DNA from: Halichondria panicea
Taxonomy: Eukaryota > Porifera > Demospongiae > Suberitida > Halichondriidae
Direction: 5' to 3'
Assembly (NCBI RefSeq): GCF_963675165.1
Contig: NC_087386.1
Span: 1,812,669-1,876,668, forward strand
Length of the DNA stretch: 64,000 nt
The notes beneath the pieces were generated by a model. It had not been told where the DNA came from, did not search any database, and saw only the letters and a list, made by a program, of their open reading frames with translations. A program made the position numbers and the translations under genes. This document shows positions 1 through 61,626 of this stretch, piece by piece; position 1 is the stretch's first letter; each line of letters opens with the position of its first letter.

Positions 1-1641
1 CTGGGTGACGGAGCAATCATTCCATCTCCTCCTGATCTCAATAGTTTAAGTTATTTCAGACACTTCATTACTTGGAACAGAGACTCATTGAATAGTTTTC
101 TTGACTTTGACCTCACTACAGCAACGGCTGGGATTACTGCTATAGAATTCAGTTTCTTGAACACTCCTGCCAACAGAATCAGTTTGCCAGAACCTAGACT
201 ATCTGTTATTGAATATTCCCCAGGCCTGACAGATCGAAATGAAACAAATATTACAACCTGGATACTTAACAATCAAGATCTGACTCAGACAGACAACCAA
301 ATCAGAACTATTAGCATTCGGCCATTTCCACCACTTAGTGCTGCGAACCTCAGAATTAGGTTTCAGTTTACAGTATTTCATGATTTTGATTGGGTCTTTC
401 TGAGTGAAATACAATTTTGCACACGGTCTCAACATCCTTTTCAACTTCAGGCTCTAATCTTTCAAACACCATCATCAATTGTTGTTCAGCCAAGTGCAGA
501 CGACCTGAGAAGACGATCAACAGAGTTAGTGTGTACTATTTCCAGTGAAGGATTGTACGTATGGCAGTGGAAGAGAGACAATGCTATCATAATGATGGAG
601 AATAACGGGGACTACAGAATCACCATTGGAGACGGAAGCAGAACTACTAAGAGTTGACGATTAACAATCTGGACTTTAGTGATGCTGATAATTATGAATG
701 CATAGCAACAACAACACACGATGTGGATTTAAGGAACTCAACAGTGTATTTAGTGGAGTTTCCAGGTACCTAATTTACTTGATATATAACTATTAAATTG
801 TTGTTTTTTCCATTCTAGAGCATGTCATTACTACACCTGATGTCAGTGCGTATCTACAGACTGGAGAGGTTACCCTGACCTGTGAGCTCCATGTTTACCA
901 GTCATCACTCTCTCCTCTTGTGTGGCTGGACTTGGGTGGTAGTGAAACAAATTACTCTACCAAACACACTGTATCTGTGTATGAAGGAAACAACACCATA
1001 ATTCTACAAATGGCACTGTCTTCCCTAGTATCATTTTGGACATCACAATTCACAACCTTTCATTAGCTGATGGAGGTACCTACACGTGTCGTGGTGTCAG
1101 AGGAGATAGTGTCACTCAACTCACAATATTAGAAGGGACTGATCCAAACATGTTATCACAAACATGCATCTCTACGTCTATAGAGGGTGAGTAAACTGTG
1201 ACTGAGTTTACTTTCATTATACATTTTATATGCCTATTATCAGTAAAAAATTATGACTTGCTTTCTACTGGTTATTATTCTCTCATATTTACTGCAGGTA
1301 TCACCCCCACTCTACCCCCTGGCAACGAAACTACCATTCGTGTTCCTATAATGAACGAAGCCATTGTCACCACAGCAGCTGCAGTAGGGAGTGTTATTAT
1401 AGTACTCACATTACTTCTCATAATCTTCATCGTTTATCTATTGAGGAAGATCAACAAGATGAAAATACGCTCAACTGAAGCTGTACAAGTACCTAATTCT
1501 CTCTCCATACAAGAAAGGGAGGACACCTCAATTTCTGTGCAGGATGTGACGTATGAAGAGATTGCCGAAAGACACGACATGTTATTGACAAAGAACGAAG
1601 CCTACATGTGTGTGTCGACTCCTCTAGAAAATATAAATTAG
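1..1641 (+). pseudogene. U0: split-type Ig receptor unit, 5'-truncated by window edge, frameshifted
   Basis: The unit starts inside exon 2 (1..765: N-domain from the LGDGAIIPSPPDL segment, then Ig1). Exon 3 is 819..1186 (Ig2) and exon 4 is 1298..1641 (stalk, TM, tail with VTYEEI and EAYMCV). Two lesions are seen by comparison with sister units. A 2-nt insertion near 651 shifts Ig1 just after GDGSRTTK. A 1-nt deletion near 1012 shifts Ig2 in the ILQNGT segment. Both would block a full-length product, so I call a pseudogene; sequencing error is possible but would have to occur twice. The spacer to 2205 holds a conserved proline-rich element (1786..1919) and the next unit's 5' flank. Confidence 0.8.
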
Positions 1642-1785
1642 AAATTAACATTTCACTGAGCAGACCTGTAACATTATCCTGTGTTTGCATACCATTTACC
1701 TGATACTTTAATTTTCTCTATCTGTAAAAACATTTTGTGTGTTACCTGTGTACAATAGTAATTCCATTTAAGAAGCGATCTGAGA

Positions 1786-1919
1786 ATGCTTTATAATAAA
1801 CCACCTGTTCCTGGGAAACCCACAATAGTGACAAAGACGTCCAAACAGCGAGTTAGACCCCCTGTGGGGAGATTAAGCCCAATGTCAAACGAAAGCCTAT
1901 AAAGTCGAAATATCTGTAG
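1786..1919 (+). other. Conserved downstream proline-rich ORF element, U0 copy
   Basis: About 145 nt after the U0 stop lies a short block encoding NKPPVPGKPTIVTKTSKQ followed, after a 1-nt slip, by PPVEIKPNV. An AATAAA hexamer is embedded at its start. The block recurs downstream of most units. It could be a relic or alternative cytoplasmic exon, a conserved 3'UTR/polyadenylation region, or both. Confidence 0.5.
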
Positions 1920-2143
1920 TATAGCGGACATGCATGTTCCATTGAGATCATGTTAGTATGTCTAAGTATTTTGCGGTATTAAATTGAGCAACTGAGAGTT
2001 GACTCATGAACACTGGTGTTTGTGATTGTTTGTCAAACAGTGACATTATTTGTTAAACTTTTCCAATTCATGCGTAATCCTTCCACTATATAATTTGTTC
2101 CATTCTGCATGCCCCCATTCTGAGTAGATACTGCAACTCTTGT

Positions 2144-2205
2144 ACACATATTCATAGCTAAAGTTGTACTAACACAAACTAGCTCTTGCTCTAATCTGAG
2201 CAGTC
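2144..2205 (+). promoter_or_regulatory. Conserved 5' flank, class with TCTTGCTCTAATCTGAGCAG
   Basis: This block immediately before the ATG is shared with U5, U15 and (in part) U7, U19 and the detached U23 half-exon. It contains AAAGTTGTACTAAC, a variant of the AAAGTTGGACTAAC block seen before most other units. Conservation in non-coding sequence may mean a core promoter or 5'UTR, or simply recent duplication. I see no convincing TATA box at a fixed distance. Confidence 0.35.
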
Positions 2206-3971
2206 ATGATTCTATTTCTAACTGCTCTGCTCATCAGTGGCTATTGTGATGCTCTCACTTGTAATCAAACAGGTAAATTTAGGCAGACATTTAAAGACTT
2301 ATTTTCATATTGTATTCCAACCAATTAGTCCTTCCTACACTGTATCGAGGTCTGTGGTTAGATGGTGATCCAATTACATACAACGATGTTCTGATCACCT
2401 ATCCATCAAATTGTACACAGAGGAGCATTCTTGCTAGATATATTGTCTGTGATTACGGTGTTGTACTGGGTGACGGAGCAATCATTCCATCTCCTCCTGA
2501 TCTCAATAGTGCAAGTTATTTCAGACATTTCATTACTTGGAATAGAGATTCATTGAAAAGTTTTATTGACTTTGACCTCACTACAGCAACGGCTGGGATT
2601 ACTGCTATAGAGCTCAGTTTCTTGAACAGTCCTGCCAGTGGAATCAGTTTGCCAGAACCTAGACTATCTGTAGTTGAATATACCCGAGGCCTGAGAGATC
2701 GAAGTGAAGCAAGTATTACAACCTGGATATTCGATAATCAAGATCTGTCTCAGACAGACAACCAAATCAGAACTATTAGCATTCGGCCATTCCCACTATT
2801 AAGTGCTATGAACCTCAGAATTATGTTCCAATTCACAGCGTTTCATGATTTTGATTGGGTCTTTCTGAGTGAAATACGATTTTGCACACAGCCTCAACCT
2901 CCTTTTCAACTTCAGGCTGTAATCCTTCAAACACCATCATTGATTGTTGTTCAGCCAAGTGCAGACGATCTGATAAGAGGATCAACAGAGTTAGTGTGCA
3001 CTGTTTCCAGTGAAGGATTGTACGTATGGCAGTGGAAGAGGGACAACGCTATCATAATGATGGAAAATATAAGCCAATACAGAATCACCATTGGAGACGG
3101 AAGCAGAACAACTAAGTTGAGGATTAACAATCTGGACTTTAGTGATGCTGCTAATTATGGATGCATAGCAACAACAACACACGATGTGGATTTAATGAAC
3201 TCAACAGTGTATTTAGTGGAGTTTCCAGGTACTTAAATTACTTAATACATGACTAATTAACTTGCTGTTCCTTCCATTCTAGAGCGTGTCATTACTACAC
3301 CTGATGTCAGTAGATATCTACAGACTGGAGAGGTTACCCTGACCTGTGAGCTCCATGGTTACCAGTCATCACTCTCTTCTCCTGTGTGGCTGGACTTGGG
3401 TGGCAGTGAAATAACTACCACTACAAAATACACTCTGTCTTTGCGTGAAGGACTCAACACCATAATTCTACAGAATGGCACTCTTGTCCCTAGTATCATT
3501 TTAGACATCACAATTCACAACCTTTCATCAGCCGATGGAGGTACCTACAGGTGTCGTGGTGTCAGAGGAGAGAGTGTCACTCAACTCACAATAGTGGAGA
3601 GTACAGCCCCTCCCACTACACCACCTCCTCCAACCACACCCCATTTGACTACTCGTTCAACGCAGCCTACGTTAGCACCTAATAACCAGTTGCCTCCTGT
3701 ACATATTTTAGTATCCGTAGTAACCATCCTAGTCATTGCATTACTTCTCTTCATTGTCTTTATCGTTTGCCTTCTGAGGAAGATAAAGAAAAAGAAATCG
3801 TTACTGACTGAAGCTGTAAAAGTACCTAATCTACTCTCCGTAAAAGAAAAGTGTTCAATTTCTGTGCAGGATGTGATATATGAAGAGATAGCTGAAAGAC
3901 GTGACATGTCATTGACAAAGAACGAAGCCTACGTGTGTGTGTCGACTCTTAGACAACCAAAAAGTTATTAA
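2206..3971 (+). CDS. U1: intact fused-type receptor with N-domain, two Ig domains, TM and dual-Tyr tail
   Basis: Exons 2206..2272, 2329..3228 and 3283..3971 join in frame (phase 1/1) to 551 aa. Residues 1-16 are a signal peptide (MILFLTALLISGYCDA). Residues 17-215 are an unrecognised Cys-containing domain ending FLSEIRFC. Ig1 spans about 235-320 (LVCT, WQWKRDN, Cys-preceding AANYGC). Ig2 spans about 323-415 (LTCELH, VWLD, GGTYRC). A Thr/Pro stalk follows (TTPPPPTTPHLTT), then a TM helix at about 462-487 and a basic stop-transfer LLRKIKKKK. The 64-residue tail carries Tyr522 in VIYEEI and Tyr539 in EAYVCV. The first fits the ITIM consensus and the Src-family SH2 preference YEEI. A surface receptor is inferred; the ligand is unknown. 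The ATG was chosen because every unit shares this signal exon. The spacer to 4441 holds a TG-rich tract and the next 5' flank. Confidence 0.85.
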
Positions 3972-4128
3972 CATTATCCTGGACTAATTTGTCAATGTCT
4001 GTGTTAATAGTTTGTATTAGTGAATTAGTTTTGTGCAAAATAGCTGTAAACTAGCCTCCTTCTCAGGCCTCTTTTTGAGTAGAGGAAGTGATCACGGGGA
4101 CAAGGCCAGCTGTAAACATATAATGCGT

Positions 4129-4441: not shown

Positions 4442-6393
4442 ATGATTCTATTTCTAACTGCTCTGCTCATCAGTGGCTATTGTGATGCTCTCACTTGTAA
4501 TCAAACAGGTAAATGTAAGCATATAGATACTATAAAATTTATAGTATCTGGTTTAAGCTACTATTTTGAAGACTTATTTTCATGTTGTATTATCCAACCA
4601 ATTAGTCCTTCCTACACTGTATCACGGTCTGTGGTTAGATGGTGATCCAATTACATACAACGATGTTCTGATCACCTATCCATCAAATTGTATACGGAGG
4701 AGCATTCTTGAAAGATTCACTGTCTGTGATTACAGTGTTGTACTGGGTGACGGAGCAATCATTCCATCTCCTCCTGATCTCAATAGTGCCAGTTATTTCA
4801 GACATTTCATCTCTTGGAACAGAGACTCGTTGAATAGTTTTATTGACTTTGACCTCACTACAGCAACGGCTGGGATTACTGCTATAGAACTCAGTTTCTT
4901 AAACAGTCCAGTCAATGGAATCAGTTTGGCAGAACCTAGACTATCTGTTATTGCATATGGTCCAGGCTTTAGAGATCAAACGGAAACAAATATCACAACC
5001 TAGATACTTGACAATCAAGATCTGACTCAGGCAGACCACCAAATCAGAACTATTAGCATTCTGCCACTCACACCACTTAGTGCTGCGAACCTCAGAATTA
5101 GGTTTCAGTTTACAGTGTTTCATGATTTTGATTTAGTCTTTCTGAGTGAAATACGATTTTGCACACAGCTTCCTTTTCAACTTTAGGCTCTAATCTTTTA
5201 AACACCATCATCAATTGTTGTTCAGCCAAGTGCAGATGACCTGAGAAGAGGATCAACAGAGTTAGTGTGCACTGTTTCCAGTGAAGGATCGTACATATGG
5301 CAGTGGAAGAGAAATAACACTTTTTTAGAAAATAATGGTGACTACAGGATCACCATTGGAGACGGAAGCAGAACAACTGAGTTGACGATTAACAGTCTAG
5401 ACTTTAGTGATGCTGCTAATTATGAATGCATAGCAACAACAACACACGATGTGGATTTAAGGAACTCAACAGTGTATTTAGTGGAATTTCCAGGTACCTA
5501 AATTACTTGATACAAATTGCCATTCTTCACCCTGCATGTACTCGTGCACATGTTCACCTATTAAATGTATATTACTGTCCTTCCATGTCGTTTCCACATC
5601 TGGAAATAGTGTATGTATACTGGTACCTAAGCATATCTTTCGCAAACTGTTTGTTACTGTCCTCCTTTTTCTTTTTATAGAGCATGTCATTACAATACCT
5701 GATGTCAGTGGATATCTACAAACTAGAGAGGTTATCCTGACCTGTGAGCTCCATGGTTACCAGTCATCATTCTCTCCTCCTGTGTGGTTCGACTTGGGTG
5801 GCAGTGAAATAACCGCATCTACAAAATCAAAATACACCATCACTTCTGATGAAGGAGGGAACACCATCGTTTTTGAGAATGGCACTGCTATCCCTAGTGT
5901 GATTGTCTGGCTTAGAATTCGAGATCTATCATCAGCCGATGGAGGTACCTACATGTGTCGTGGTGTCAGAGGAGGAGAGAGTGTCACTCAACTTGTGATT
6001 ATTGCAGAAGGGAAATCCCCTCCCACTACACCACCTCCCACTACTGCACTACCTGTGACTACTCAGCACACATCAGCATCTAATAATGTTTTGCTACCAA
6101 CAGTACATAGATTAGTATCTGTAGTAACTATCCTAGTGATTGTATTACTTCTCCTCATTGTCTTCATCGTTTACCTACTGAGGAAGAAGATCAACAAGAT
6201 AATACATTCCTTAATACGCTCGACTGAAGCTGTACAAGTACCTAATTCTCTCTCCATACATATACAAGAAAGGGAAGACACCTCAATTTCTGTGCAGAAT
6301 GTGACCTATGAAGAGATTGCCGAAAGAAGCGTTATGTCATTGACAAAGAACGAAGCCTACGTGTGTGTGTCGACTCCTCCTCTAGAAAAATAG
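4442..6393 (+). pseudogene. U2: fused-type receptor unit disabled by three nonsense codons
   Basis: Exons are 4442..4508, 4606..5493 and 5681..6393. The reading frame is continuous except for three stops in exon 2: TAG at 5001 (TGG in the sister U17), TAG at 5184 (CAG) and TAA at 5199 (CAA). All three are C:G to T:A transitions. The TM and tail (VTYEEI, EAYVCV) remain open. Intron 2 is longer than usual (187 nt). If translated, the first stop would release a secreted piece of the N-domain. The alternative is that U2 and U17 are alleles with one inactive. The spacer 6394-7082 holds the proline-rich element from 6600, itself broken by a TAG, and AT-rich sequence without ORFs. Confidence 0.85.
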
Positions 6394-7082: not shown

Positions 7083-9041
7083 ATGATTCTATTTCTAACT
7101 GCTTTGCTCATCAGTGGCTATTGTGATGCTCTCACTTGTAATCAAACAGGTGAGCTTAAACATACATTTGAAGATTAATGTTATATTGTATTCCAACTGT
7201 TTTAGTGAACCCTACGACGTATCGACGTCTGTGGTCAGATACTGGGAATGATTACAATGGTGTTCCCATTACCTATCCACCAAATTGTATGCGGCAAAAT
7301 CTCCATGAAATCTGTAACTACGACCTGGTACTGGGTGACGGAGCAATCATTGCATCTCCTCCTGATCTCAATAGTTCAAGTTATTTCGAGCATTTCATTG
7401 GGATGAGTGCATCAATGAATTCGTATATTGACTTTGACCTCACTACAGTAACCGCTGGGATTACTGCTATAGAGCTCAGTTTCTTGAACAGTCCTCCCAA
7501 CAGAATCAGTTTACCAGACATTGCAATATCAGTAGTTTATTTTGGAACTGTAGCACCTATTGCAAGCTGGATATTTGATAATCAAAATCTTGATCAGACA
7601 GACAACCAAATCAGAACTATTAGTATTCAGCCATTCAGACCATTTAGTGCTGCGAACTTCAGAATTACGTTTCAATTCACAGAATTTCATGATTTTAATT
7701 GGGTCTTTGTAAGTGAAGTACGCTTTTGTACAGACCTTCAACCAAACTTACAACCAGAAGTAATATTTCAAATGCCACCATCAAACAATATCCAGCCAGA
7801 TGCAGAGGACCTGAGAAGAAGATCAACAGAGTTAGTGTGCACTGTTTCCAGTGAAGGTTCGTACACATGGCAGTGGAAGAAAGATAATGTTATAATAGTG
7901 AATAAAGGGGACTACAGAATCACCATTGGAGATGAAAGTAGAACAACTAAGCTGACAATCAATAATCTAGATTTTAGTGATGCTGCTGAATATGAATGTA
8001 CGGGAATGACAAGACGAGATGCGAATGTCATGAACTCAGCAGTGTATGTACTGGAATTTCCAGGTACCTAAACATCTTACCAGGAGTACATTAAGTACTC
8101 CTGCTCTTACTTATATACATATTGTTTGTTGCTGTCTTCCTTTTTTTAGAGGTACCTAAACATCTTACCAGGAGTACATTAAGTACTCCTGCTCTTACTT
8201 ATATACATATTGTTTGTTGCTGTCTTCCTTTTTTTAGAGCGTGTCATTACTACACCTGATGTCAGTGGATATCTACAGACTGGAGAGGTTACCCTGACCT
8301 GTGAGCTCCATGGTTACCAGTCATCACTCTCTCCTCCTGTGTGGCTAAACACAAATGGCAGTGAAATAAATGACTCTGCCAAATACACTGTGTCCGTGTG
8401 TGAAGGAAACAACACCATGATTCTACAGAATGGCACTGTCGTCCCTAGTATCATTTTCAACATCACAATTCACAACCTTTCATTAGCTGATGGAGATACC
8501 TACACGTGTCGTGGTGTCAGAGGAGAGAGTGTCACTCAACTCACAATATTAGAAGGGACTGATCCAAACATGTTATCGCAAACATGCATTTCTACGTCTA
8601 TAGAGGGTGAGTAAACTGTGACTGAGTTTACTTTCATTATACATTATACATGCTTATTATCAGAAACAATTATAACTTAGTTTCGTATTTATTACTGCAG
8701 GCATCACTCCCACTCCATCCCCTGGCAACGAAACTACCACTCGTGTTCCTGTAATGGATGAAACCACTGTCATCATAGCAGCTGCAGTAGTGGCTGTTAT
8801 TATAGTACTCACAATACTTATCCTCATAATCTTCATCGTTTACCTACTGAGGAAGATCAACAAGATGAAAATACGTTTGACTGAAGCTGTACAAATACCT
8901 AATTCTCTCTCCATACAAGAAAGGGAAGACACCTCAATTTCTGTGCAGGATGTGACGTATGAAGAGATTGCCGAAAGAAGCGTCATGTCATTAACAAAGA
9001 ACGAAGCCTACGTGTGTGTGTCGACTCCTCTAGAGAAATAG
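7083..9041 (+). CDS. U3: intact split-type receptor, four exons
   Basis: Exons 7083..7149, 7206..8063, 8238..8606 and 8701..9041 join to 544 aa. The N-domain belongs to a divergent subgroup (starts VNPTTYRRLWSD, has a shorter second variable region SVVYFGTVAPIASW). Its putative Cys-bounded loop is short (C MRQNLHEI C). Ig1 has WQWKKDN and AAEYEC; Ig2 has LTCELH and GDTYTC. Exon 4 gives a short stalk (TPTPSPGNETTTR), a TM rich in Ile/Val, LLRKINKMK and a tail with VTYEEI and EAYVCV. Intron 2 (8064..8237) is doubled by a tandem duplication. Reading through the exon 3 donor gives an immediate stop (EGE), so intron retention would give a soluble form. The spacer to 9761 holds a degenerate proline-rich element (about 9217-9340) and otherwise nothing I recognise. 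Confidence 0.85.
8064..8239 (+). repeat. 88-bp perfect tandem duplication of an entire intron
   Basis: Positions 8064-8151 and 8152-8239 are two copies of the U3 intron 2 sequence plus the two exon bases AG. Each copy has its own GTACCT donor and TTTTTTTAG acceptor. The homologous introns of U16 and U18 have one copy. Using the outer sites keeps the frame; using both inner sites would leave a 2-nt AG exon and shift the frame. Confidence 0.9.
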
Positions 9042-9761: not shown

Positions 9762-11639
9762 ATGATTCTATTTCTAACTGCTCTGCTCATCAGTGGCTAT
9801 TGTGATGCTCTCATTTGTAATCAAACAGGTGAGCTTAAGCAGACATTTGAAGATTAATGTCATAGTAACTGTATTCCTAATGTTTTAGTGAACCCTATGA
9901 CGTATCGACGTCTGTGGTCAGATATTGGGAATGATTACAATGGTGTCCCCATCACCTATCCACCAAATTGTATGCGGCAAAATCTTCAGGAAATCTCCAT
10001 CCTCTGTGACTATGATGTGGTACTGGGTGACAGAGCAATCATTCCATCTCCTCCTGATCTCAATACTTCAAGTTATTTCGAGCATTTCATTGGGATGAGC
10101 AACTCAGTGAATTCGTATATTGACTTTGACCTCACTACAGCAACGGCTGGGATTACTGCTATAGAGCTCAGTTTCTTGAACAGTCCTACCAACAGAATCA
10201 GTTTGCCAGACATTACAATATCAGTAGTTCATTTTGGAGCTGTATCGCTTATTGCAAGCTGGATATTTGATAATGAACATCTTGATCAGACAGACAACCA
10301 AATCAGAACTATTAGTATTCAGCCATTCACACCACTTAGTGCTGTGAACCTCAGAATTAGGTTCCAATTCACAGTGCTTCATGATTTTGATTGGATCTTT
10401 CTGAGTGAAGTACGCTTTTGTACAGACCTTCAACCAAACTTACAACCAGAAGTAACATTTCAAATACCACCATCAAACAATATACAGCCAAGTGCAGAGG
10501 ACCTGAGAAGAGGATCAACAGAGTTAGTGTGCACTATTTCCAGTGAAGGTTCATACACATGGCAGTGGAAGAGAGACAATGCTATGATAGAAAATAAAGG
10601 GGACTACAGAATAACCATTGGAGATGGAAGTAGAACAACTAAGTTGACAATCAACAATCTAGAGTTTAGTGATGCTGCTGAATATGAATGTACGGTAATG
10701 ACAAGACTGGATGCGAATGTCAGGAACTCAACAGTGTATGTACTGGAGTTTCCAGGTACTTAAATATCATACTTACACTACACTATGATTTTTTGTGATG
10801 TTCATTCCATTTTATAGAGCATGTCATTACAACACTTGATGTCAGTGGACATCTACTGACTGGAGAGGTTACTCTGACCTGTGAGCTCCATGGTTACCAG
10901 TCATCACTCTCTCCTCCTGTGTGGCTAAACACAAATGGCAGTGAAACAAACGACTCTACCAAATACACTGTGTCCGTGTTTGAAGGAAACAACACCATAA
11001 TTCTACAGAATGGCACTGTCGTCCTTAGTATTATTCTGAGCATCACAATTCACAACCTTTCATCAGTTGATGGAGGTACCTACACGTGTCGTGGTGTCAG
11101 AGGAGAGAGTGTCACTCAACTCACAATATTGGAAGGGACTGATCCAAACATGGTATCGCAAACATGCATTTCTACGTCTATAAAGGGTGAGTAAACTGTG
11201 ACTGAGTTTACTTTCATTTTACATTTTATATGTCTATTATCAGAAACAATTATAACTTAGTTTCTACTGCATTGTTATTATTCTCTCGTATTTACTGCAG
11301 GCATCACTCCCACTCCACCCCCTGGCAATGAAACTACCACTCGTGTCCCTGTAATGGATGAAACCATTGTCATCATAGCAGCTGCAAGTAGGGAGTGTTA
11401 TTATAGTACTCACAATACTTATCCTCATAATCTTCATCGTTTACCTACTGAGGAAGATCAACAAGATGAAAATACGTTTGAATGAAGCTGTACAAGTACC
11501 TAATTCTCTCTCCATGCAAGAAAGGGAAGACACCTCAATTTCTGTGCAGGATGTGACATATGAAGAAATTGCCGAAAGAAACGACATGTTATTGACAAAT
11601 AACGAAGCCTACGTGTGTGTGTCGACTCCTCTAGATTAA
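9762..11639 (+). pseudogene. U4: split-type receptor unit with a 1-nt insertion in the TM exon
   Basis: Exons are 9762..9828, 9889..10755, 10818..11186 and 11301..11639. Exons 1-3 are fully open and encode signal peptide, VNPMTYRRLWSD-type N-domain, Ig1 and Ig2. In exon 4 an extra A near 11385 (GCTGCAAGTAGG, GCTGCAGTAGG in sisters) shifts the frame before the membrane helix. The shifted frame ends after a polar stretch (LPTEEDQQDENTF). The likely product is therefore a secreted two-Ig protein of near-full ectodomain length, unless this is a sequence error. The original frame downstream still encodes VTYEEI and EAYVCV. The spacer to 12304 has the proline-rich element from 11792, there shifted by one base. 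Confidence 0.75.
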
Positions 11640-12304: not shown

Positions 12305-14057
12305 ATGATTCTATTTCTAACTGCTCTGCTCATCAGTGGCTATTGTGATGCTCTCACTTGTAATCAAACAGGCAGACATTTTGAAAATTTATTTCATATT
12401 GTAATCCAACTGTTTAGTTAACCCTACGACGTATCGAGGTCTGTGGTTAGATGGTGAACCAATTAAATACAACGATGTTCTGATCACCTATCTATCAAAT
12501 TGTACACAGCCAAACATTCTTGCTAGATACATTGTCTGTGATTACAGTGTTGTACTGGGTGACGAAGCAATCATCCCATCTCCTCCTGATCTCAATAGTG
12601 CAAGTTATTTCAGACATTTCATTGCTTGGAACAGATACTCATTGAGTAGTTATGTTGACTTTGACCTCATTACAACAACGGCTGGAATTACTGCTATTGA
12701 GCTCAGTTTCTTAAACAGTCCAGCCAATGGAATCAGTTTGCCAGAACCTAGACTATCTGTAGTTGAATATATCCGAGGCCTGAGAGATCGAAGTGAAGTA
12801 AGTATAACAACCTGGATATTTGATAATCAAGATCTGGCTCAGACAGACAACCAAATCAGAACTATTAGCATTTGGCCATTCCCACCACTTAGTGCTGCGA
12901 ACCTCAGAATTAGGTTCCAATTCACAGTGCTTCATGATTTTGATTGGATCTTTCTGAGTAAAATACGAGTTTGCACAAAGCCTCAACCACCTTTTCAACA
13001 ACTTAAGGCTGTCATCCTTCAAACACTATCATCTATTGTTCTTCAGCCGAGTGCAGATGACCAGAAAAGAGGATCAACAGAGTTAGTGTGCACTATTTTG
13101 GGAGAAGGATCGTACACATGGCAGTGGAAGAGAGATAACAATATGATAGAAAATAGTGAGGACTACAAAATCACTATTGGAGACGGAAGCAGAAAAACTA
13201 AGTTGACGATTAACAATCTGGACTTTAGTGATGCTGCTAATTATGAATGCATAGCAACAACAACACAGGATATGGATTTAATGAAATCAACAGTGTATTT
13301 AGTGGAGTTCTCAGGTACCTAAATTACTTAATACATGACTAATTAACTTGCTGTTCCTTCCATTCTAGAGCATGTCATTACTACACCTGATATCAGTGAG
13401 TATCTACAGACTGGAGAGGTTACCCTGACCTGTGAGCTCCATGGTTACCAGTCATCACTCTCTCCTCCTGTGTGGCTAAACACAAATGGTAGTCAACCAA
13501 ACGACTCTGCCAAATACACTGTGTCCGTGTTTGAAGGAAACAACACCATAATTCTACAGAATGGCACTGTCGTCCCTAGTATTATTCTGAGCATCACAAT
13601 TCACAACCTTTCATCAGCTGATGGAGGTACCTACACGTGTCGTGGTGTCAGAGGAGAGAGTGTCACTCAACTCATAATAGTAGAGGGTACAGCCCCTCCC
13701 ACTGCACCACCTCCTCCAACCACACCCCATTTGACTACTCGTTCAACGCTGCCTACGTTAGCACCTAATAACCAGTTGCCTCCTGTACATATTTTAGTAT
13801 CCATAGTAACCATCCTAGTCATTGCATTACTTCTCTTCATTGTCTTTATCGTTTGCCTTCTGAGGAAGATAAACAAAAAGAAATCGTTACTGACTGAAGC
13901 TGTAAAAGTACCTAATCTACTCTCCGTAAAAGAAAAGTGTTCAATTTCTGTGCAAGATGTGATATATGAAGAGATAGCTGAAAGACGTGACATGTCATTG
14001 ACAAAGAACGAAGCCTACGTGTGTGTGTCGACTCTTAGACAACCAAAAAGTTATTAA
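12305..14057 (+). pseudogene. U5: fused-type receptor unit, open throughout but exon 1 donor deleted
   Basis: Exon 1 (12305..12371) is followed by GCAGAC instead of GTGAGCTTAGGCAGAC, so about 10 nt holding the splice donor are gone. Exon 2 (12418..13314) and exon 3 (13369..14057) are open and in phase. Retaining intron 1 meets a stop (TTTAGTTAA). A GC-AG intron of 46 nt is conceivable, so the unit may not be dead. The tail is like that of U1 (VIYEEI, EAYVCV, ending LRQPKSY). The N-domain begins VNPTTYRGLWLDGE, a hybrid between the two N-terminal subgroups. The spacer to 14390 holds the short TG tract and 5' flank sequence that runs directly into the U6 fragment. Confidence 0.65.
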
Positions 14058-46255: not shown

Positions 46256-48010
46256 ATGATTCTATTTCTAACTGCTCTGCTCATCAGTGGCTATTGTGAT
46301 GCTCTCACTTGTAATCAAACAGGTAAGGTTAGGCAGACATTTCAACATTTATTTTCATAATTATTGTATTCCAACCAATTAGCCCTTCCTACACTGTATC
46401 GAGGTCTGTGGTTAGATGGTGATCCAATTACATACAACGATGTTCTGATCACATATCCATTAAATTGTATATGGCCGAACATTCTTAAAAAAATCAATGT
46501 CTGTGATTACAGTGTTGTACTGGGTGACGGAGCAATCACCCCATCTCCTCCTGATCTCAATAGTTCAAGTTATTTCAGACATTTCATTTCTTGGAATAGA
46601 GACTCGTTGAATAGTTTTATTGACTTTGACCTCACTACAGCAACGGCTGGGATTACTGCTATTGAGCTCAGTTTCTTGAACAGTCCAGCCAATGGAATCA
46701 GTTTGCCAGAACCTAGACTATCTGTAGTTGAATATACCCGAGGCCTGAGAGATCGAAGTGAAATAAGTATAACAACCTGGATATTTGATAATCAAGATCT
46801 GGCTCAGACAGACAACCAAATCAGAACTATTAGCATTCGGCCATTCACACCACTTAGTGCTGTGAATCTCAGAGTTAGGTTCCAATTCACAGTGCTTCAT
46901 GATTTTGATTGGGTCTTTCTGAGTGAAATACGATTTTGCACACAGCCTCTACCTCCTTTTCAACTTCAGGCTCTAATCTTTCAAACACCATCATCAATTG
47001 TTGTTCAGCCGAGTGCAGACGATCTGAGAAGAGGATCAACAGAGTTAGTGTGCACTATTTCGGATGAAGGATTGTACATATGGCAGTGGAAGAGAGACAA
47101 AGCTATCATATCGATGGAAAATATAAGCCAATACAGAATCACCATTGGAGACGGAAGCAGAACAACTAAGTTGAGGATTAACAATCTGGACTTTAGTGAT
47201 GCTGCTGATTATGAATGCATAGCAACAACAACACAGGATGTGGATTTAAGGAACTCAACAGTGTATTTAGTGGAGTTTCCAGGTACCTAAATTACTTAAT
47301 ACATGACTAATTAACTTGCTGTTCTTTCCATTCTAGAGCATGTCATTACTACACCTGATATCAGTGAGTATATACAGACTGGAGAGGTTACCCTGACCTG
47401 TGAGCTCCATGGTTACCAGTCATCACTCTCTCCTCCTGTGTGGCTAGACTCGGGTGGCAGTGAAATAAATACCACTACCAAATACACTGAGTCTGTGTGT
47501 GAAGGAACTAACACCATAATTCTACAGAATGGCACTGTCGTCCCTAGTATAATTTTGGACATCACCATTCACAATCTTTCATCAGCTGATGGAGGAGGTA
47601 CCTACACGTGTCGTGGTGTCAGAGGAGAGAGTGTCACTCAACTCACAATAGTGGAGGGTACAGCCCCTCCCACTGCACCACCTCCTCCAACCACACTCCA
47701 TTTGACTACTCGTTCAACGCAGCCTACGTTAGCACCTAATAACCAGTTGCCTCCTGTACATATTTTAGTATCCGTAGTAACCATCCTAGTCATTGCATTA
47801 CTTCTCTTCATTGTCTTTATCGTTTGCCTTTTGAGGAAGATAAGGAAAAAGAAATCGTTTTTGACTGAAGCTGTAAAAGTACCTAATCTACTCTCCGTAA
47901 AAGAAAAGTGTTCAATTTCTGTGCAGGATGTGATATATGAAGAGATAGCTGAAAGAAGCGTCATATCATTGACAAAGAACGAGGCCTATGTGTGTGTGTC
48001 GACTCTTTAA
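46256..48010 (+). CDS. U20: intact fused-type receptor, 546 aa (sister of U8)
   Basis: Exons 46256..46322, 46383..47282 and 47337..48010 join in frame. Its first loop is unique in the window (C IWPNILKKINV C), with intron 1 of the GTAAGGTTAGGCAGAC type. The second variable region is VVEYTRGLRDRSEISI. Ig1 has DEGLYIWQWKRDKAIISMEN; Ig2 has GGGTYTC. The stalk is TAPPPPTTLHLTT, the TM is of VHILVSVV type followed by LLRKIRKKK, and the tail has VIYEEI and EAYVCV and ends VSTL. The hinge codon that is TAG in U8 is CAG here. The spacer to 48529 has the TG-tract flank. Confidence 0.85.
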
Positions 48011-48529: not shown

Positions 48530-50348
48530 ATGATTCTATTTCTAACTGCTCTGCTCATCAGTGGCTATTGTGATGCTCTCACTTGTAATCAAACAAGTGA
48601 GCTTAAGCAGACATCTGAAGACTTATTATTTTTAATTCAATGTTGTATTATCCAACCGATTAGCCATTCCTACACTGTATCGAGGTCTGTGGTTAGATGG
48701 TGATCCAATTACATACAACGATGTTCTGATCACCTATCCATCAAATTGTACATGGAGGAGCATTCTTGAAAGATTCATTGTCTGTGATTACAGTGTTGTA
48801 CTGGGTGACGGAGCAATCATTCCATCTCCTCCTGATCTCAATAGTGCAAGTTATTTCACACATTTCATTGCTGCTTGGAACAGAGACTCATTGAATAGTT
48901 TTATTGATTTTGACCTCACTACAGCAACGGCTGGGATTACTGTTATAGAGCTCAGTTTCTTGAACAGTCCTGCCAGTGGAATCAGTTTGCCAGAACCTAG
49001 ACTATCTGTAGTTGAATATAACCCAAACCTTAGTGTTCGAAACGAAACAAATATTATAACCTGGGTATTTGATAATCAAGATCTGACTCGAATAGACAAC
49101 CAAATCAGAACTATTAACATTCGGCCACTCACACCACTTAGTGCTGCGAACCTCAGAATTAGGTTTCAATTCACAGTGTTTCATGATTTTGATTGGGTCT
49201 TTCTGAGTGAAATAAGATTTTGCACACAGCCTCAACCTCTTTTTTAACTTATTAACGCTGTCATACTTCGAACACCATCATCGATTATTGTTCAGCCAAA
49301 TGCAGGGGACCTGAGAAGAGGATCAACAGAGTTAGTGTGTACTATTTCGGGTGAAGGATCGTACGTATGGCAGTGGAGGAGAGACAATGCTATCATAATG
49401 ATGGAAAATGGTGAGTACTACAGAATCACCATTGGAGACGGAAGCAGAACAACTAAACTGATGATTAACAATCTGGAATTTAGCGATGCTGCTAATTATG
49501 AATGCATAGCAACAACAACACACCATGTGGATTTAATGAACTCAACAGTGTATTTAGTGGAATTTCCAGGTACCTAAATTACTTGATACAAATTGCCATT
49601 CTACACCCTGCATGTACTCGTGTACATATTCACCTATTAAATGTATATTGCTGTCCTTCCTTTCTAGAACATGTCGTTTCCACATCTGGTGTGTGTGGGT
49701 ATCTACAGACTGGAGAGGTTACCCTGACCTGTGAGCTCCATGGTTACCAGTCATCACTCTCTCCTCCTGTGTGGCTGGACTTGGGTGGCAGTGAAATAAC
49801 CGCATCTACAAAATACACCATCACTTCTGGTGAAGGAGGGAACACCATCGTTTTTGAGAATGGCACTGCTATCCCTAGTGTGATTGTCAGGCTTAGAATT
49901 CGAGATCTATCGTTAGCCGATGGAGGGAACTACACGTGTCGTGGTGTCGGAGGAGGAGAGAGTGTCACTCAACTTGTGATTACAGAAGGGACAGCCCCTC
50001 CCACTACTGCACTACCTGTGACTACTCAGGGCACGTTAGCACCTAATAATGTTTTGCTACCAACAGTACATGGATTAGTGTCCATAGTAACTATCCTAGT
50101 GATTGCATTACTTCTCCTCCTTGTCTTCATCGTTTACCTACTGAGGAAGAAGATCAACAAGATAATAAACTCCTTAATACGTTCGACTGAAGCTGTACAA
50201 GTACCTAATTCTCTCTCCATACAAGAAAGGGAAGACACCTCAATTTTTTGTGCAAGACGCGACATATGAAGAGATTGCCGAAAGAAGCAACATGTTATTG
50301 ACAAAGAACGAAGCCTACGTGTGTGTGTCGACTCCTTTAGAAAAATAG
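48530..50348 (+). pseudogene. U21: fused-type unit with a hinge stop and tail frameshift (sister of U9)
   Basis: Exons are 48530..48596, 48664..49569 and 49668..50348. TAA at 49245 replaces CAA (PPFQL in sisters). In the tail an extra T near 50246 shifts the frame before YEEI, giving IFCARRDI and a stop. The last base of exon 1 is A instead of G (AAACAA before GTGAGC), which weakens the donor. Ig1 and Ig2 are otherwise open. The proline-rich element follows at about 50509-50630, and the normal 3' flank is cut at 50716. Confidence 0.85.
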
Positions 50349-51405: not shown

Positions 51406-53279
51406 CTATTTTCTAGAGGAGTCGACACACACGTAGGCTTCGTTCTTTGTCAATAACATGTCATTTTTTTCGGCGATCTCTTCATATGTCACATCCTGCA
51501 CAGAAATTGAGGAGTCTTTCCTTTCTTGCATGGAGAGAGAATTAGGTACTTGTACAGCTTCAGTCGAACGTATTTTTATCTTGTTGATCTTCCTCAGTAG
51601 GTAAACGATGAAGATTATGAGGATAAGTATTGTGAGTACTATAATAACACTCCCTACTGCAGCTGCTATGATGACAATAGTTTCATCCATTACAGGGACA
51701 CGAGTGGTAGTTTCGTTGCCAGGGGGTGGAGTGGGGGTGATACCTGCAGTAAATATGAGAGAATAATAACCAGTAGAAAGCAAGTCATAATTTTTTACTG
51801 ATAATAGGCATATAAAATGTATAATGAAAGTAAACTCAGTCACAGTTTACTCACCCTCTATAGACGTAGAGATGTATGTTTGTGATAACATGTTTGGATC
51901 AGTCCCTTCTAATATTGTGAGTTGAGTGACACTCTCTCCTCTGACACCACGACACGTGTAGGTACCTCCATCGGCTGACGAAAGGTTGTGAATTGTGATG
52001 TTGAAAATGATACTAGGGACGACAGTGCCATTCTGTAGAATTATGGTGTTGTTTCCTTCACACACGGACACCGTGTATTTGGTAGAGTCATTTGTTTCAC
52101 TACCATTTGTGTTTAGCCACACAGGAGGAGAGAGTGATGACTGGTAACCATGGAGCTCACAGGTCAGGGTAACCTCTCCAGTCTGTAGATATCCACTGAC
52201 ATCAGGTGTAGTAATGACATGCTCTAAAAAAAGGAAGACAATAACAAACAGTATGTATATAAGTAAGAGGTTTAGGTACCTGGAAACTCCAATACATACA
52301 CTGCTGAATTAACGACATTCGCATCTCGTCTTGTCATTACCGTACATTTATATTCAGCAGCATCACTTATAAAGTCTAGATTGTTGATTGTCAGCTTAGT
52401 TGTTCTACTTCCGTCTCCAATGGTGATTGTGTAGTCGCCGTTATTTACTATCATAACATTATCTCTCTCCCACTGCTGTACGAACCTTCACTGGAAACAG
52501 TGCACACTAACTCTGTTGATCTTCTTCTCAGATCACCCGCACTTGGCTGTATATAGTTTGATGATGGCGTTTGAAATGTTACTTCTGGTTGTTGAAGGTC
52601 TGTGCAAAAGCGTACTTCACTCAGAAAAAACCAATCAAAATCATGAAGCACTGTGAATTGGAACCTAATTCTGAGGTTTGCAGCACTAAGTGGTGGGAAT
52701 GGCCGAATGCTAATAGTTCTGATTTGGTTGTCTGTCTGAGCCAGATCTTGATTATCAAATATCCAGGTTGTTATACTTGTTTCGTTTCGATCCCTAAGGC
52801 CTGGGGTATATTCAATAACAGATAGTCTAGGTTCTGGCAAACTGATTCTGTTGGCAGGACTGTTCAAGAAACTGAAGTCTATAGCAGTAATCCCAGTCGT
52901 TGCTGTAGTGAGGTCAAAGTCAATAAAACTATTCAATGAGTCTCTGTTCCAAGCAATGAAATATCTGACATAACTTGCACTATTAAGATCAGGAGGAGAT
53001 GGAATGATTGCTCCGTCACCCAGTACCACACTATAATCACAGGCAGTGAATCTAGCAAAAAAATACTGTGTACAATTTGATGGATAGGTGATCAGAACAT
53101 CATTGTATGTAATTGGATCACCATCTAACCACAGACCTCGATACAGTGTAGGAAGGACTAATCGGTTGGAATACAACATTAAAATAATTCGATGCTACTT
53201 AAACTTATATACCTGTTTGAGTGCAAGTGAGAGTATCACAATAGCCACTGATGAGCAGAGCAGTTAGAAATAGAATCAT
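51406..53279 (-). pseudogene. U22: split-type unit on the minus strand, 4-nt deletion in Ig1
   Basis: Exons on the minus strand are 53279..53213, 53157..52280, 52223..51855 and 51743..51406. The signal exon is of the CDTLTCTQT type and the loop is C TQYFFARFTA C. Near 52486 four nt are missing from TACACATGGCAGTGG, which removes the conserved Trp context (WQW) of Ig1 and shifts the frame. The N-domain is fused-class while Ig1, Ig2 and TM are split-class. The tail keeps VTYEEI and AYVCV, but a 2-nt deletion changes the last residues to DSSRK. The proline-rich element lies at 51258-51140 on the minus strand. Intron 3 (51744-51854) and the 5' flank (53280-53606) match the plus-strand units. Confidence 0.85.
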
Positions 53280-53606: not shown

Positions 53607-55430
53607 GGCTATTGTGATGCTCTCACTTGTAATCAAACTGGTAAGCTTAAGCAAACATTTGAAGGCTTATTTTCATATTGTATTTTTACCAATTAGTTCT
53701 TCCTACACTGTATCGAGGTCTGTTGTTGGATGGTGATCCAATTACATACAATGATGTTCTGATCACTTATCCATCAAATTGTACACAGAGAAACTTTTTT
53801 GCTAGATACATCTGTGATTACAGTGTGATACTGGGTGACAGAGCAATCATTCCATCTCCTCCTGATCTCAATAGTGCAAGTTATTTCAGACATTTCATTG
53901 CTTGGAACAGAGACTCATTGAATAGTTTTATTGACTTTGACTTCACTACAGCAACGGCTGGGATTACTGCTATAGAGCTCAGTTTCTTGAACAGTCCTGC
54001 CAACAGAATCAGTTTGCCAGAACCTAGACTATCTGTAGTTGAATATAACCCAAACCTTAGTGTTCGAAATGAAACAAGTATTACAACCTGGATACTTGAT
54101 AATCAAGATCTGGCTCAGACAGACAACCAAATCAGAACTATTAGCATTCGGCCACTCACACCACTTAGTGCTGTGAACCTCAGAATTAGGTTCCAATTCA
54201 CAGTGTTTCATGATTTTGATTGGGTCTTTCTGAGTGAAATACGATTTTGTACACAGTCTCAACTACCTTTTCAAATTAAGGCCACAATCTTTCAAACACC
54301 ATCATCAATTGTTGTTCAGCCGAGTGCAGACGATCTGAGAAGTGGATCAACAGAGTTAGTGTGCACTATTTGGGATGAAGGATCGTACGTACGTATGGCA
54401 GTGGAAGAGGGACAACGCTATCATAATGATGGAAAATATAAGCCAATACAGAATCACTATTGGAGACGGAAGCAGAACAACTAAGTTGACGATTAACAAT
54501 CTGGACTTTAGTGATGCTGATAATTATGAATGCATAGCAACAACACACGATGTGGATTTAATGAACTCAACAATGTATTTAGTGGAGTTTCCAGGTACGT
54601 AAATATAGTTGCGTTATACTGTTTAATCCTTCCATACTATATAGAGCATGTCATTACTGCACCTGATGTCAGTGGATATCTACAGACTGGAGAGGTTGTT
54701 ACCCTGACCTGTGAGCTCCATGGTTACCAGTCATCACTCTCTCTCCTCCTGTGTGGCTGGACTCGGGTGGCAGTGAAATAACTACCACTACAAAATACAC
54801 TCTGTCCGTATGTGAAGGACTCAACACCATAATTCTACAGAATGGCACTGTCGTCCCTAGTATTATTTTAGACATCACAATTCACCACCTTTCATCAGCT
54901 GATGGAGGGAACTACACGTGTCATGGTGTCAGAAGAGAGAGTGTCACTCAACTCACAATATTAGAAGGAACTGATCCAAACATATTATCACAAACATGGA
55001 TTTCCTCATCTATAGAGGGTGAGTAAACTGTGATAATTATGCATAACAATTTTACAATAACTTGGTTTTTGATTCAGGTATCACCCCCACTACATCCCCT
55101 GGCAACGAAACTACCACTCATGTCCCTATAATGGACGAAACCATTGTCACCATAGCAGCTGCTGTAGTGACTGTTATTATAGTACTCACAATACTTCTCC
55201 TCATAATCTTCATTGTTTACCTACTGAAGAAGAAGATCAACAAGATACTACATTTCTTAGTACGCTCGACTGAAGCTGTACAAATACCTAATTCTCTCTC
55301 CATACAAAAAAGGGAAGACACCTCAATTTCTGTGCAGGATGTGACGTATGAAGAGATTGCCGAAAGAAGCGTCATGTCATTGACAAAGAACGAAGCCTAC
55401 GTGTGTGTGTCAACTCTTCTAGAAAAATAG
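53607..55430 (+). pseudogene. U23: split-type unit that lost its start to the inversion
   Basis: Exon 1 retains only its 3' half (53607..53640). Exons 2 (53697..54594), 3 (54645..55018) and 4 (55078..55430) follow. Exon 2 has a 4-nt tandem duplication (TACGTACGTATGG) near 54390, just before WQW. Exon 3 has an extra TC in CTCTCTCTCC near 54742 and an in-frame extra codon in GEVVTLTC. Exon 4 is open: TM, LLKKKINK, VTYEEI, EAYVCV. With no start codon, signal peptide or promoter it is not expressible as a receptor. The spacer to 56099 holds a shortened proline-rich element at about 55690-55760. Confidence 0.9.
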
Positions 55431-56099: not shown

Positions 56100-57902
56100 A
56101 TGATTTTATTTCTAACTGCTCTGCTCATCAGTGGCTATTGTGATGCTCTCACTTGTAATCAAATAGGTATAAGTTTAAGTAGCATCGAATTATTTTAATG
56201 TTGTATTCCAACCAATTAGCCCTTCCTACACTGTATCGAGGTCTGTGGTTAGATGGTGATCCAATTACATACAACGATGTTCTGATCACCTATCCATCAA
56301 ATTGTACATGGAGGAGCATTCTTGAAAGATTCATTGTCTGTGATTACAGTGTTGTGCTGGGTGACGGAGCGATCATTCCATCTCCTCCTGATCTCAATAG
56401 TGCAAGTTATTTCAGACATTTCATCTCTTGGAACAGAGACTCGTTGAATAGTTTTATTGACTTTGACCTCACTACAGCAACGGCTGGGATTACTGCTATA
56501 GAACTCAGTTTCTTAAACAGTCCAGTCAATGGAATCAGTTTGCCAGAACTTAGACTATCTGTTATTGAATATGGTCCAGGCTTTAGAGATCAAACGGAAA
56601 CAAATATCACAACCTGGATACTTGACAATCAAAATCTGACTCAGGCAGACCACCAAATCAGAACTATTAGCATTCAGCCATTCCCACCACTTAGTGCTGC
56701 GAACCTCAGAATTATGTTCCAGTTCACAGTGTTTCATGATTTTGATTTAGTCTTTCTGAGTGAAATACGATTTTGCACACAGCCTCCTTTTCAACTTCAG
56801 GCTCTAATCTTTCAAACACCATCATCAATTGTTGTTCAGCCAAGTGCAGACGACCTGAGAAGAGGATCAACAGAGTTAGTGTGCACTATTTCCAGTGAAG
56901 GTTCGTACGTATGGCAGTGGAGGAGAGACAACACTTTTTTAGAAAATAATGGTGACTACACAATCACCATTGGAGACGGAAGCAGAACAACTAAGTTGAA
57001 GATTAACAATCTGGACTTTAGTGATGCTGCTAATTATGAATGCATAGCAACAACAACACAGGATGTGGATTTAAGGAACTCAATAGTGTATTTAATGGAG
57101 TTTCCAGGTACCTAAATTACTTGATACAAATTGACATTCTACACCTGCATGTACTCGTGCACATATTCACCTATTAAATGTATATTGCTGTCCTTCCTTT
57201 CTAGAACATGTCGTTTCCACATCTGGTGTGTGTGGGTATGACTATCTACAGACTGGAGAGGTTACCCTGACCTGTGAGCTCCATGGTTACCAGTCATCAC
57301 TCTCTCCTCCTGTGTGGCTAGGCTTGGGTGGCAGGGAAATAACCGCATCTACAAAATACACCATCACTTCTGGTTCAGGAGGGAACACAATTGTCTTTGA
57401 AGATGGCACTGCTATCCCTAGTGTGATTGTCAGCCTTACAATTCACAATCTATCATCAGCCGATGGAGGGAACTACACGTGTCGTGGTGTCAGAGGAGGA
57501 GAGAGTGTCACTCAACTTGTGATTGCAGAAGGGACAGGCCCTCCCACTACACCACCCCCTCTCACTACTGCACTACCTGTGACTACTCAGCACACGTTAG
57601 CACCTAGTAATGTTTTGCTACCAACAGTATTAGTATCCATAGTAACTATTCTAGTGATTGCATTACTTCTGCTCATTGTCTTCATCGTTTACCTACTGAG
57701 GAAGAAGATCAAGAATATAGTAAATTCCTTAATACGCTCGACTGAAGCTGTACAAGTACCTAATTCGCTCTCCATACAAGAAAGGGAGGACACCTCAATT
57801 TCTCTGCAGGATGTGACGTATGAAGAGATTGCCGAAAGAAGTGTCATGTCATTGACAAAGAACGAAGCCTACGTGTGTGTGTCAACTCCTCTAGAAAAAT
57901 AG
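56100..57902 (+). CDS. U24: intact fused-type receptor, 550 aa
   Basis: Exons 56100..56166, 56220..57107 and 57205..57902 join in frame. Signal exon: MILFLTALLISGYCDALTCN with a QI end. The loop is C TWRSILERFIV C, the second variable region SVIEYGPGFRDQTETNI, and the strand motif DFDLVFLSEIRFC. Ig1 has WQWRRDNTFLENNGD; Ig2 has an extra codon (GYDYLQTGE) and GGNYTC. The stalk is PPTTPPPLTTALPVTT. TM, LLRKKIKN and a tail with VTYEEI (preceded by SLQD instead of SVQD) and EAYVCV follow. It is the rightmost intact unit. The spacer to 58573 has the best-preserved proline-rich element (58126-58305) and AT-rich DNA. Confidence 0.85.
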
Positions 57903-58125
57903 ACAGCCAAAAAATTAACCTTTTACTGCATGAGCAGCTCTTTAACATTATCCTGGACTAATTTATCATGTCTATTGTTTATCCATTACATTTTGTGCAT
58001 AATTCTATTTAGTACCCTGACACTTTAGATTTGTCTATATAGCTTATAAACATACCGTGTGTTGCATTGTGTGTGTGTTTGTACTTCTATATGAGTTGCT
58101 TCACACACATTCTAGCAATTTGAGA

Positions 58126-58305
58126 ATGCTGTTTAATAAACCACCTGTTCCTAGGAAACCCACAATAGCGACGAAGCCGTCCAAACAGCCAGTTATACCC
58201 CCTGTGGAGATTAAGCCCAATGTCAAACCAAAGCCTTATTTTAACAATATTGCTTGGTATAGCAAAACTGTTCAAATCTACAGGCATGTGATATGTAGAA
58301 GATAA
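58126..58305 (+). other. Downstream proline-rich ORF element, best-preserved copy
   Basis: From the ATG the frame reads LFNKPPVPRKPTIATKP, SKQPVIPPVEIKPNVKPKP and on to a stop at 58305. TTCTAG just upstream could be a splice acceptor. Copies start near 1786, 6600, 9217, 11792, 21038, 23572, 28329, 30790, 33565, 36016, 41189, 43685, 50509, 55690 and, on the minus strand, 51258. Several have lost the frame. The PPVPxKP core resembles an SH3 ligand. It may be an old cytoplasmic exon now in the 3' flank, an alternative last exon, or a 3'UTR with AATAAA at its start. Units with the VHILV-type TM lack it. Confidence 0.5.
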
Positions 58306-58573
58306 GTATTTTTGGAAGTGGGGATAATATTGAGCAACAGAGATTTGATTCATGAACACTGATATTTGACATTATATCAGTGATATATACCTCAGCACAT
58401 GTTGACGTCCCTATAATATGTGCTGATTATTCGATTTGTCGATTTGTCACTTCATGCATGCGTACTTTCCATTCTACATGTCCCATATATTTGGCTATAT
58501 ATTGGCCTCTCATACACATGCATGACTGTATATACATCACTAATTCATCATGCTGAAGTTGGTCTTGTCTTTA

Positions 58574-59893
58574 ACTGCTAACTGCTCTGCTCATCAGTGG
58601 CTATATAATTATTGTGATGCTCTCACTTGTAATCAAGGTAAATATAGAAGTAGACATTTGAAGATTAATGTCATTTTGTATTCCAACTGTTTTAGTGAAC
58701 CCTACGACGTATCGACGTCTGTGGTCAGATATTGGGAATGATTACAATGGTGTTCCCATTACCTATCCACCAAATTGTATGCTGCAAATTCTTTAAGAGA
58801 TCTCCATCCTTTGTGACTATATGATGTGGTACAGAGCAATCATTCCATCTCCTCCTGATCTCAGTTACTGCTCAGTTTCTTGAACAGTCCGCCAACAGAA
58901 TCAGTTTGCCAGACATTACAATATCAGTAGTTCATTATGGAATTTCAAGCTGGATATTTGATAATGAAGATCTGGCTCAGACAGACAACCAAATCAGAAC
59001 TGTTAGTATTCAACCATTCAAACCACTTAAAGCCCTGACCCTCAGAATTAGGTTCCAATTCACAGCATTGCATGATTTGATTGGGTCTTTCTGAGTGAAA
59101 TACGCAACCAACTTTACAACCAGAAGTTTATAACATTTCAAATGACATCGTCAAATATTATCCAGCCAAGTGCAGACGACCTGAGAAGAGGATCAACAGA
59201 ATTAGTGTGCACTGTTTCCAGTGAAGGATTGTACGTATGGCAGTGGAAGAGAGATAATGCTATAATAGAAAATAAAGGGGGCTACAGAATCACCATGTGT
59301 GAAGGAAACAACACCATAATTCTACAGAATGGCACTGTCGTCCCTAGTATCATTTTCAACATCACAATTCACAACCTTTTATCAGCTGATGGAGGTAACT
59401 ACACGTGTCGTGGTGTCAGAGGAGAGAGTGTCACTCAACTCACAATAGTAGAAGGGACTGATCCAAATATATTATCCCAAACGTCTATGAAGGGTGAGTG
59501 TTTAAATAGTGACTGATTTTGTTTTCATTATACACCTATAATGATATCAATAATTATATGTTTGGTTTCAATACTTAATTAACAGCTGTAAACACGATTG
59601 TTTTTACAGTAAATATTACCCCCACTCCACCCCCTGGCAACGAAACTACCACTCGTGTCTCTGGGAGGGACGAAACCATTGTCACCATAGCAGCTGCAGT
59701 AGTGACTGTACTCATCATCAACACTGAAGCTGTACAAGTACCTAATTCTCTCTCCATACAAGAAAGGGAGGACACCTCAATTTCTGTGCAGGATGTGACA
59801 TAGGAAAAGATTGCCGAAAGGAGCAGTATGTTATTGACAAAGAACGAAGCCTACATGTGTGTGTCAACCCTTCTATACCTAGACAGCAACTAA
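58574..59893 (+). pseudogene. U25: most decayed unit, Ig1-Ig2 hybrid without TM
   Basis: Exon 1 (about 58574..58636) has lost its ATG segment and gained several bases. Exon 2 (58696 onward, VNPTTYRRLWSDIGND) has several indels and lacks the first part of the ITAIELSFL segment. At 59291-59296 the Ig1 strand GYRITM runs directly into CEGNNTIILQNGTVV of Ig2, so the second half of Ig1, intron 2 and the start of Ig2 are deleted. Exon 4 (from 59610) has VTVLIINTEAVQ, with the TM helix missing, and TAG at 59801 in place of the tail Tyr codon. It sits at the array edge beside the housekeeping promoter. Confidence 0.9.

Positions 59894-61538: not shown

Positions 61539-61626
<88 letters not shown>

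Follow-up and report, generated by a model that had tools for sequence, protein, structure and literature searches.

Which receptors mediate graft rejection in sponges is still debated, and several described systems frame the question. In Geodia cydonium, SAM and RTK, named by their depositors a cell recognition molecule and a receptor tyrosine kinase (RTK), are kinase-less and kinase-bearing forms that share a pair of immunoglobulin (Ig) domains, and graft-response and polymorphism results have reportedly been obtained for them. Vertebrate LILR, KIR, and FCRL clusters encode paired receptors, in which shared ectodomains are joined to alternative signalling ends and tails follow the consensus of the immunoreceptor tyrosine-based inhibitory motif (ITIM). 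The Hydractinia Alr complex is a tandem, diversified family of invertebrate Ig receptors for which self-recognition is on record; it is not known to have a DS-like domain or a kinase arm. The family is given as 41 genes in PMC11999971. Here, we describe a tandem receptor array of the sponge Halichondria panicea in a window of 64 kb (the whole stretch of DNA analyzed, G000:C10:1812669-1876668 of a 131-Mb genome). With moderate confidence, we read it as the kinase-less arm of a DDR-related receptor locus with reshuffled recognition exons, likely serving cell-contact recognition for identity or immune reactivity. The locus is defined, tandem, and apparently individually variable, and it links the Geodia molecules and the DDR family to the paired-receptor logic known from vertebrate immunity; the graft-rejection question thereby becomes testable. 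The open PMC literature, to which the search was confined (subscription papers lay outside its scope), held no recognised description of the array.

Searching the window by tblastn with the N, Ig1, and Ig2–transmembrane (TM)–tail parts of a query unit recovered 25 ectodomain units and one isolated tail, 26 pieces in all, across bases 1-59875; the first unit starts 158 bases left of the window and the last ends at 59875. The initial annotation, made from the letters alone, had proposed a head-to-tail cluster of 26 units, eight intact and 18 broken or partial. Both counts were reproduced: eight of the 25 units have every exon and splice site intact, and 17 broken units plus the remnant make up the 18. 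The head-to-tail order holds for the 24 units on the plus strand, the remaining one (51418-53179) being inverted. Units match the query at 47-100% identity and blocks of up to 6.6 kb recur at 97.6%, so the array is not due to chance. The spans below run from the N-domain match to the approximate tail end (unit 24, starting at 56198 by this measure, is given exon by exon). Tail classes A, B, and C are short and K is a kinase; B has its TM and tail in a separate exon 4.

1..1641, plus strand: unit 1, broken (Ig1 frameshift), class B, begins 158 bases before the window
2307..3971, plus strand: unit 2, intact, class C tail (VKEKCSIS..VIYEEI)
4584..6393, plus strand: unit 3, broken (three stops in exon 2), class A tail
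7202..9041, plus strand: unit 4, intact, class B (exon 4 tail)
9879..11636, plus strand: unit 5, exon 2 open, exon 4 frameshifted, class B
12396..14057, plus strand: unit 6, exons 2-3 open, exon 1 without GT donor, class C
14465..14659, plus strand: isolated tail remnant, YEEI tail only
14815..16274, plus strand: unit 7, broken, class C
16882..18528, plus strand: unit 8, one stop in exon 2, class C
19166..20871, plus strand: unit 9, one stop in exon 2, class A
21659..23429, plus strand: unit 10, intact, class B
24177..25811, plus strand: unit 11, intact, class C
26439..28148, plus strand: unit 12, broken, class A
28970..30612, plus strand: unit 13, exon 2 frameshift, class A
31381..33408, plus strand: unit 14, exon 2 heavily broken, class B
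34131..35839, plus strand: unit 15, intact, class A
36723..38570, plus strand: unit 16, broken, class B
39173..40982, plus strand: unit 17, intact, class A
41791..43528, plus strand: unit 18, broken, class B
44275..45742, plus strand: unit 19, broken, class C
46361..48010, plus strand: unit 20, intact, class C
48642..50345, plus strand: unit 21, broken, class A
51418..53179, minus strand: unit 22, inverted, broken, class B
53675..55427, plus strand: unit 23, broken, class B
56100..56166, plus strand: unit 24 (intact, class A) exon 1, signal peptide
56220..57107, plus strand: unit 24 exon 2, N-domain (predicted DS-like from the fold of paralog P0068) and Ig1
57205..57902, plus strand: unit 24 exon 3, Ig2, Pro/Thr stalk, TM, tail with VTYEEI..EAYVCV
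58692..59875, plus strand: unit 25, broken, stop replaces the YEEI tyrosine, class B

Exon 1 is a signal exon like MILFLTALLISGYCDALTCNQ, and exon 2, with an AG acceptor and mostly a TCCAG/gtacct donor, encodes the N-domain and Ig1. Exon 3 carries Ig2, stalk, TM, and tail, or Ig2 alone where TM and tail follow in exon 4 (class B); the exon boundaries are compatible with phase 1 introns. The anatomy first proposed (signal, N-domain, two Ig domains, TM, signalling tail) stands except that the signal exon was found in 18 of the 25 window units, some without a good donor. Exon 2 is open in ten, including unit 5, with its frameshifted exon 4, and unit 6, which has lost the exon 1 GT donor. In unit 4, the 88-bp intron between exons 2 and 3 is duplicated exactly in tandem, both splice sites included (8062-8239). 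Nothing supported a viral origin or a structural repeat, the outcome that would have spoken against receptors; the array consists of exon-intron genes with host-type domains. As to expression, the named database matches are predicted RefSeq models only (LOC135343327, LOC135343285, and LOC135343335, all ‘uncharacterized’). P0069 and P0075 were considered as spliced forms and rejected; both read through the intron and are therefore taken as genomic.

A pattern scan of the 190-kb stretch around the window found 33 tails. The pattern fixes the isoleucine at +3 and the distal tyrosine and leaves the first tyrosine free; of the 33 tails, 32 have this residue and one has a stop instead, and V stands at -2 in 30 of 33. 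The tail fits the ITIM consensus [SIVL]xYxx[IVL] as VxYEEI (with the I at +3 preset by the pattern). Across 32 tails, including those from broken units, pN/pS is 0.35. The tail of a relative at C10 1.667 Mb (VTYEEIAERTEMKLKTNESY) and the exon behind another on C6 (DYEVIQEERAATLTRNRSY) resemble the array tails by eye, which suggests that the tail module is old.

The ectodomain had been called undescribed and its N-domain novel, and comparison supported neither description. In a structural model of one paralog, P0068, the N-domain adopts the DS-like fold of DDR1; by this model, the N-domain of the receptor units is DS-like, and novelty was rejected. The tandem Ig1-Ig2 of P0068 aligns across both domains with Geodia SAML (PDB 8ovq) and RTK (PDB 8qpx), with LTCE..GY....SPP.W in common, and the Ig pair of the window units appears homologous to theirs. 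The window units correspond to the SAM form of the sponge two-Ig family. The Geodia crystal chains have little sequence ahead of Ig1, where the Halichondria units have the predicted DS-like domain; the tandem array, the reshuffling of exon 2, and the YEEI tails are features reported here for Halichondria. From DDR1/DDR2, which share the modelled fold and, in the sister genes, the kinase type, the locus differs in its two Ig domains, in window units without a kinase, and in the lack of any F5/8-type DS domain match (PF00754) on C10 in an exon-by-exon search of six frames at E ≤ 0.01. PF00754 has 11 matches genome-wide, on C17, C16, and C1. Eight F5/8 type C domain exons form a cluster at C17:349854-376970.

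The array extends past both window ends. Searched across the genome, one exon 2 had 71 matches at the exon level, 63 of them in C10 1.786-1.938 Mb and eight elsewhere (C10 0.196 and 1.67-1.71 Mb; C6 6.15 Mb). We analyzed 44 units in the main region, 11 left of the window, 25 within, and eight right of it. Of the 44, 21 have an open exon 2 (only those >800 bases counted), namely 15 short-tail and six kinase units. All eight right-hand units carry a tyrosine kinase exon, open to its end in five, and form the following sister array:

C10:1911806-1940245: kinase array

The kinase is DDR-type, with DDR2 and DDR1 as best matches, and a pattern scan and genome search found none in the 25 window units. 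Seven more related kinase exons lie at C10:1701549-1733829, with 45-74% identity to the array kinase. Six of them are at 45-54% (C10 1.70-1.73 Mb), and two of these directly follow weak N-domain matches at 1699245 and 1705456 (32-38%, E ~1e-4). The seventh, at 1713496, belongs to an RTK with the array ectodomain; the relative found at C10 1.711 Mb is an RTK of this kind. The class B tail exon resembles the RTK TM exon (59-64% across ~55 residues), and this resemblance points to common ancestry of short forms and RTKs in that part too. An RTK fragment, P0196, matches the kinase exon at 47% and looks Geodia-like by eye. Immediately to the right of the kinase array, an unassigned gene occurs in tandem copies (DRNETYQEELWRRS..LRDHLSPEILEKYGPS; C10:1942362-1948320).

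Exon 2 has been exchanged between tail classes. On trees of the same 40 units (rows 1791178, 1792359, 1844049, and 1871360 excluded), the fewest tail-class changes are 13 for N, 14 for Ig1, and five for Ig2, against a minimum of three and a shuffled mean of ~22. The kinase units require six changes on the exon-2 tree, at least four of them forced by starred branches. In the approximately unbiased test, a single kinase clade is rejected for exon 2 (p 5.7e-87; p 0.029 without the most divergent row) and not rejected for Ig2 (p 0.065). The two signalling ends share a single pool of N+Ig1 exons, and nothing hints more strongly at paired receptors with ligands in common.

The array contains near-identical blocks of 6.6 kb (97.6%), 4.4 kb (97.4%), and 4.5 kb (94.9%). 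The birth-and-death array proposed in the initial annotation is supported, as is its likeness in dynamics to Alr- and LILR-type clusters. Signs of the haplotype diversity it had suggested looking for are present: divergent receptor copies exist on another contig, 811764. For 21 exon-2 clusters, 811764 is the longest contig; three of them match a reference copy at ≥98%, two at 91-93%, and 16 at <90%; one of the 16, P0039, is flagged as window-encoded with a best match of 84.5%, and without it the figure is 15 of 20. The count leaves aside P0067 and P0111, which belong to other loci, P0114, which matches part of unit 25 at 97.9%, and two clusters of exon 3, and it numbers unmatched copies and gives no fraction, since the protein database is clustered at 90% and hides alleles above that level. 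As a rough control, the C6 and C10 0.196 Mb relatives are found elsewhere at 99.7% (P0083, P0088). Contig 811764 also carries seven kinase exons. Contigs 612290 (11 ectodomain exons and kinase P0141) and 1850133 (P0120 and kinase P0142) probably come from other sponges, because their ectodomains have 45-57% identity to the best place in the H. panicea loci; ten of the 11 from 612290 were included in one tree, where they cluster together. Over the 21 open exon 2 (ratio of means, 210 pairs), dN/dS is 0.62 for N and 0.50 for Ig1, coming near or above 1 in a few short windows. Nine of the 13 most variable columns (50 sequences) fall in two N-domain patches, P0068 residues 57-66 and 145-156.

Each intact gene would encode a type I membrane receptor in which a DS-like domain is followed by an Ig pair of the Geodia SAM/RTK type, a TM segment, and a short tail with the ITIM-consensus VxYEEI and a distal tyrosine. 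The same ectodomain sits on DDR-type tyrosine kinases in the adjoining array. Unequal crossing-over or gene conversion would duplicate units and shift exon 2 (DS-like plus Ig1) among signalling ends, so that each chromosome would have its own set of recognition modules. The kinase end presumably signals by itself and activates; the VxYEEI end presumably binds SH2 proteins and inhibits or modulates. By analogy, this would resemble LILR, KIR, and FCRL in shared ectodomains with alternative signalling ends and ITIM-consensus tails, with the difference that the activating arm would be an intrinsic kinase. The most likely role would be recognition at cell contacts, by which individual identity or immune reactivity is set. 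We infer the signalling direction, the ligand, allo- versus microbial recognition, and the expression of the units, as well as a self/non-self function; the array is a candidate basis of self/other discrimination in sponges. Rather doubtful, to our minds, is the further step of calling the locus the sponge histocompatibility complex. On that view, every chromosome would have its own set of Ig receptors derived from DDRs, recombination would join their recognition exons to kinase or ITIM-like ends, and each cell would use matched activating and inhibitory receptors to read its neighbour.

Several observations weigh against the cell-recognition proposal or the DS-like identity within it. The DS-like sequence match stays under the Pfam cut-off (five of 80 members at E ≤ 1, best 0.0078), and CCL2-like (nine members) and DUF2417 (five) do no worse; DDR1 is missing from the plain Foldseek top 50, which hold only Ig domains and antibody-bearing complexes. 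A profile of the N-domain alone retrieved nothing from the PDB, the top entry being an unrelated chain at E 0.24, and PF21114 matched no array member in the genome, its single match (E 6.4) being on C1. With the family profile, titin (1e-25) and Robo2 (2e-15) outscore Geodia RTK (1.4e-14) and SAML (4.3e-14). The short tail satisfies the ITIM consensus only, and the distal YVCV fits neither the usual ITIM pattern nor that of the activating counterpart, ITAM. Contig 811764 may stem from the other haplotype or from another animal. No strong positive selection was found in the 21 open exon 2, where dN/dS is below 1, and 17 of the 25 window units are broken. The last count suits a mostly relic array, drifting as pseudogenes around one or a few working genes with reshuffling as neutral gene conversion; we think this improbable, given dN/dS of 0.5-0.6 in open copies, the tail pN/pS, and the 15 short-tail and six kinase units with exon 2 open.

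A microbe-driven, diversified pattern-recognition set in place of an allorecognition locus is a possibility that we take seriously while expecting otherwise. An arms race would fit the fast turnover and the differences in gene content, and 62% of the identified pattern-recognition receptor genes of H. panicea are expressed in some samples only (PMC8242945). The classes screened in that immune study (TIR, NACHT, GPS/7TM, C-type lectin, and SRCR) do not include the array family, kinases with Ig domains figure there solely among putative cytokine receptors, and the close Ig relatives are the Geodia molecules, named for cell recognition and kinase activity. The DS-like fold and the DDR-type kinase would also fit matrix receptors, with kinase forms binding collagen like DDR1/2 and short forms acting as tuning decoys or adhesion molecules. 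This is unlikely: the F5/8-type DS domain, described as the collagen binder of DDRs in PMC6485061, has no match on C10, and collagen leaves dozens of diverging exon-2 copies unexplained. Least probable is an assembly artefact, an array swollen by haplotypes that were collapsed or duplicated in error. Two pairs of blocks (4.4 kb at 97.4% and 6.6 kb at 97.6%) do recur, and the proteins of contig 800893 repeat reference copies at 99.4-100%, though perhaps from the same reads; yet even the most similar block pair above 4 kb shows 2.4% divergence, and most units diverge further in exon 2.

One further gene of the window separates the short-tail array from the kinase array:

60500..63540, plus strand: PNUTS/PPP1R10-like gene

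It has a TFIIS-type exon (Med26, E 1.8e-4) and a PP1-binding stretch, KKKKVSWASDDNL..YFELDESER (a short match, E 0.057). In humans, PPP1R10 and DDR1 both lie in the class I region of the major histocompatibility complex (MHC), and PNUTS/PPP1R10 beside DDR-type kinases could mark a very old linkage with that region. Three further genes of that region were tested: a Tfb2/GTF2H4-type gene lies on C5, an ATAT1-type gene lies on C10 but 3.5 Mb off, and the flotillin model gave no match. With one of the three on C10, a deep linkage is therefore not established. Between the PNUTS-like gene and the kinase array are a fibrinogen-C gene and a TRIM-like gene with RING/B-box and filamin exons (L015:7532-8434, L017:6646-8614). 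An intron of the PNUTS-like gene holds a SNORD57-like C/D small nucleolar RNA (window 61797-61864, plus strand; 47.6 bits, cut-off 47).

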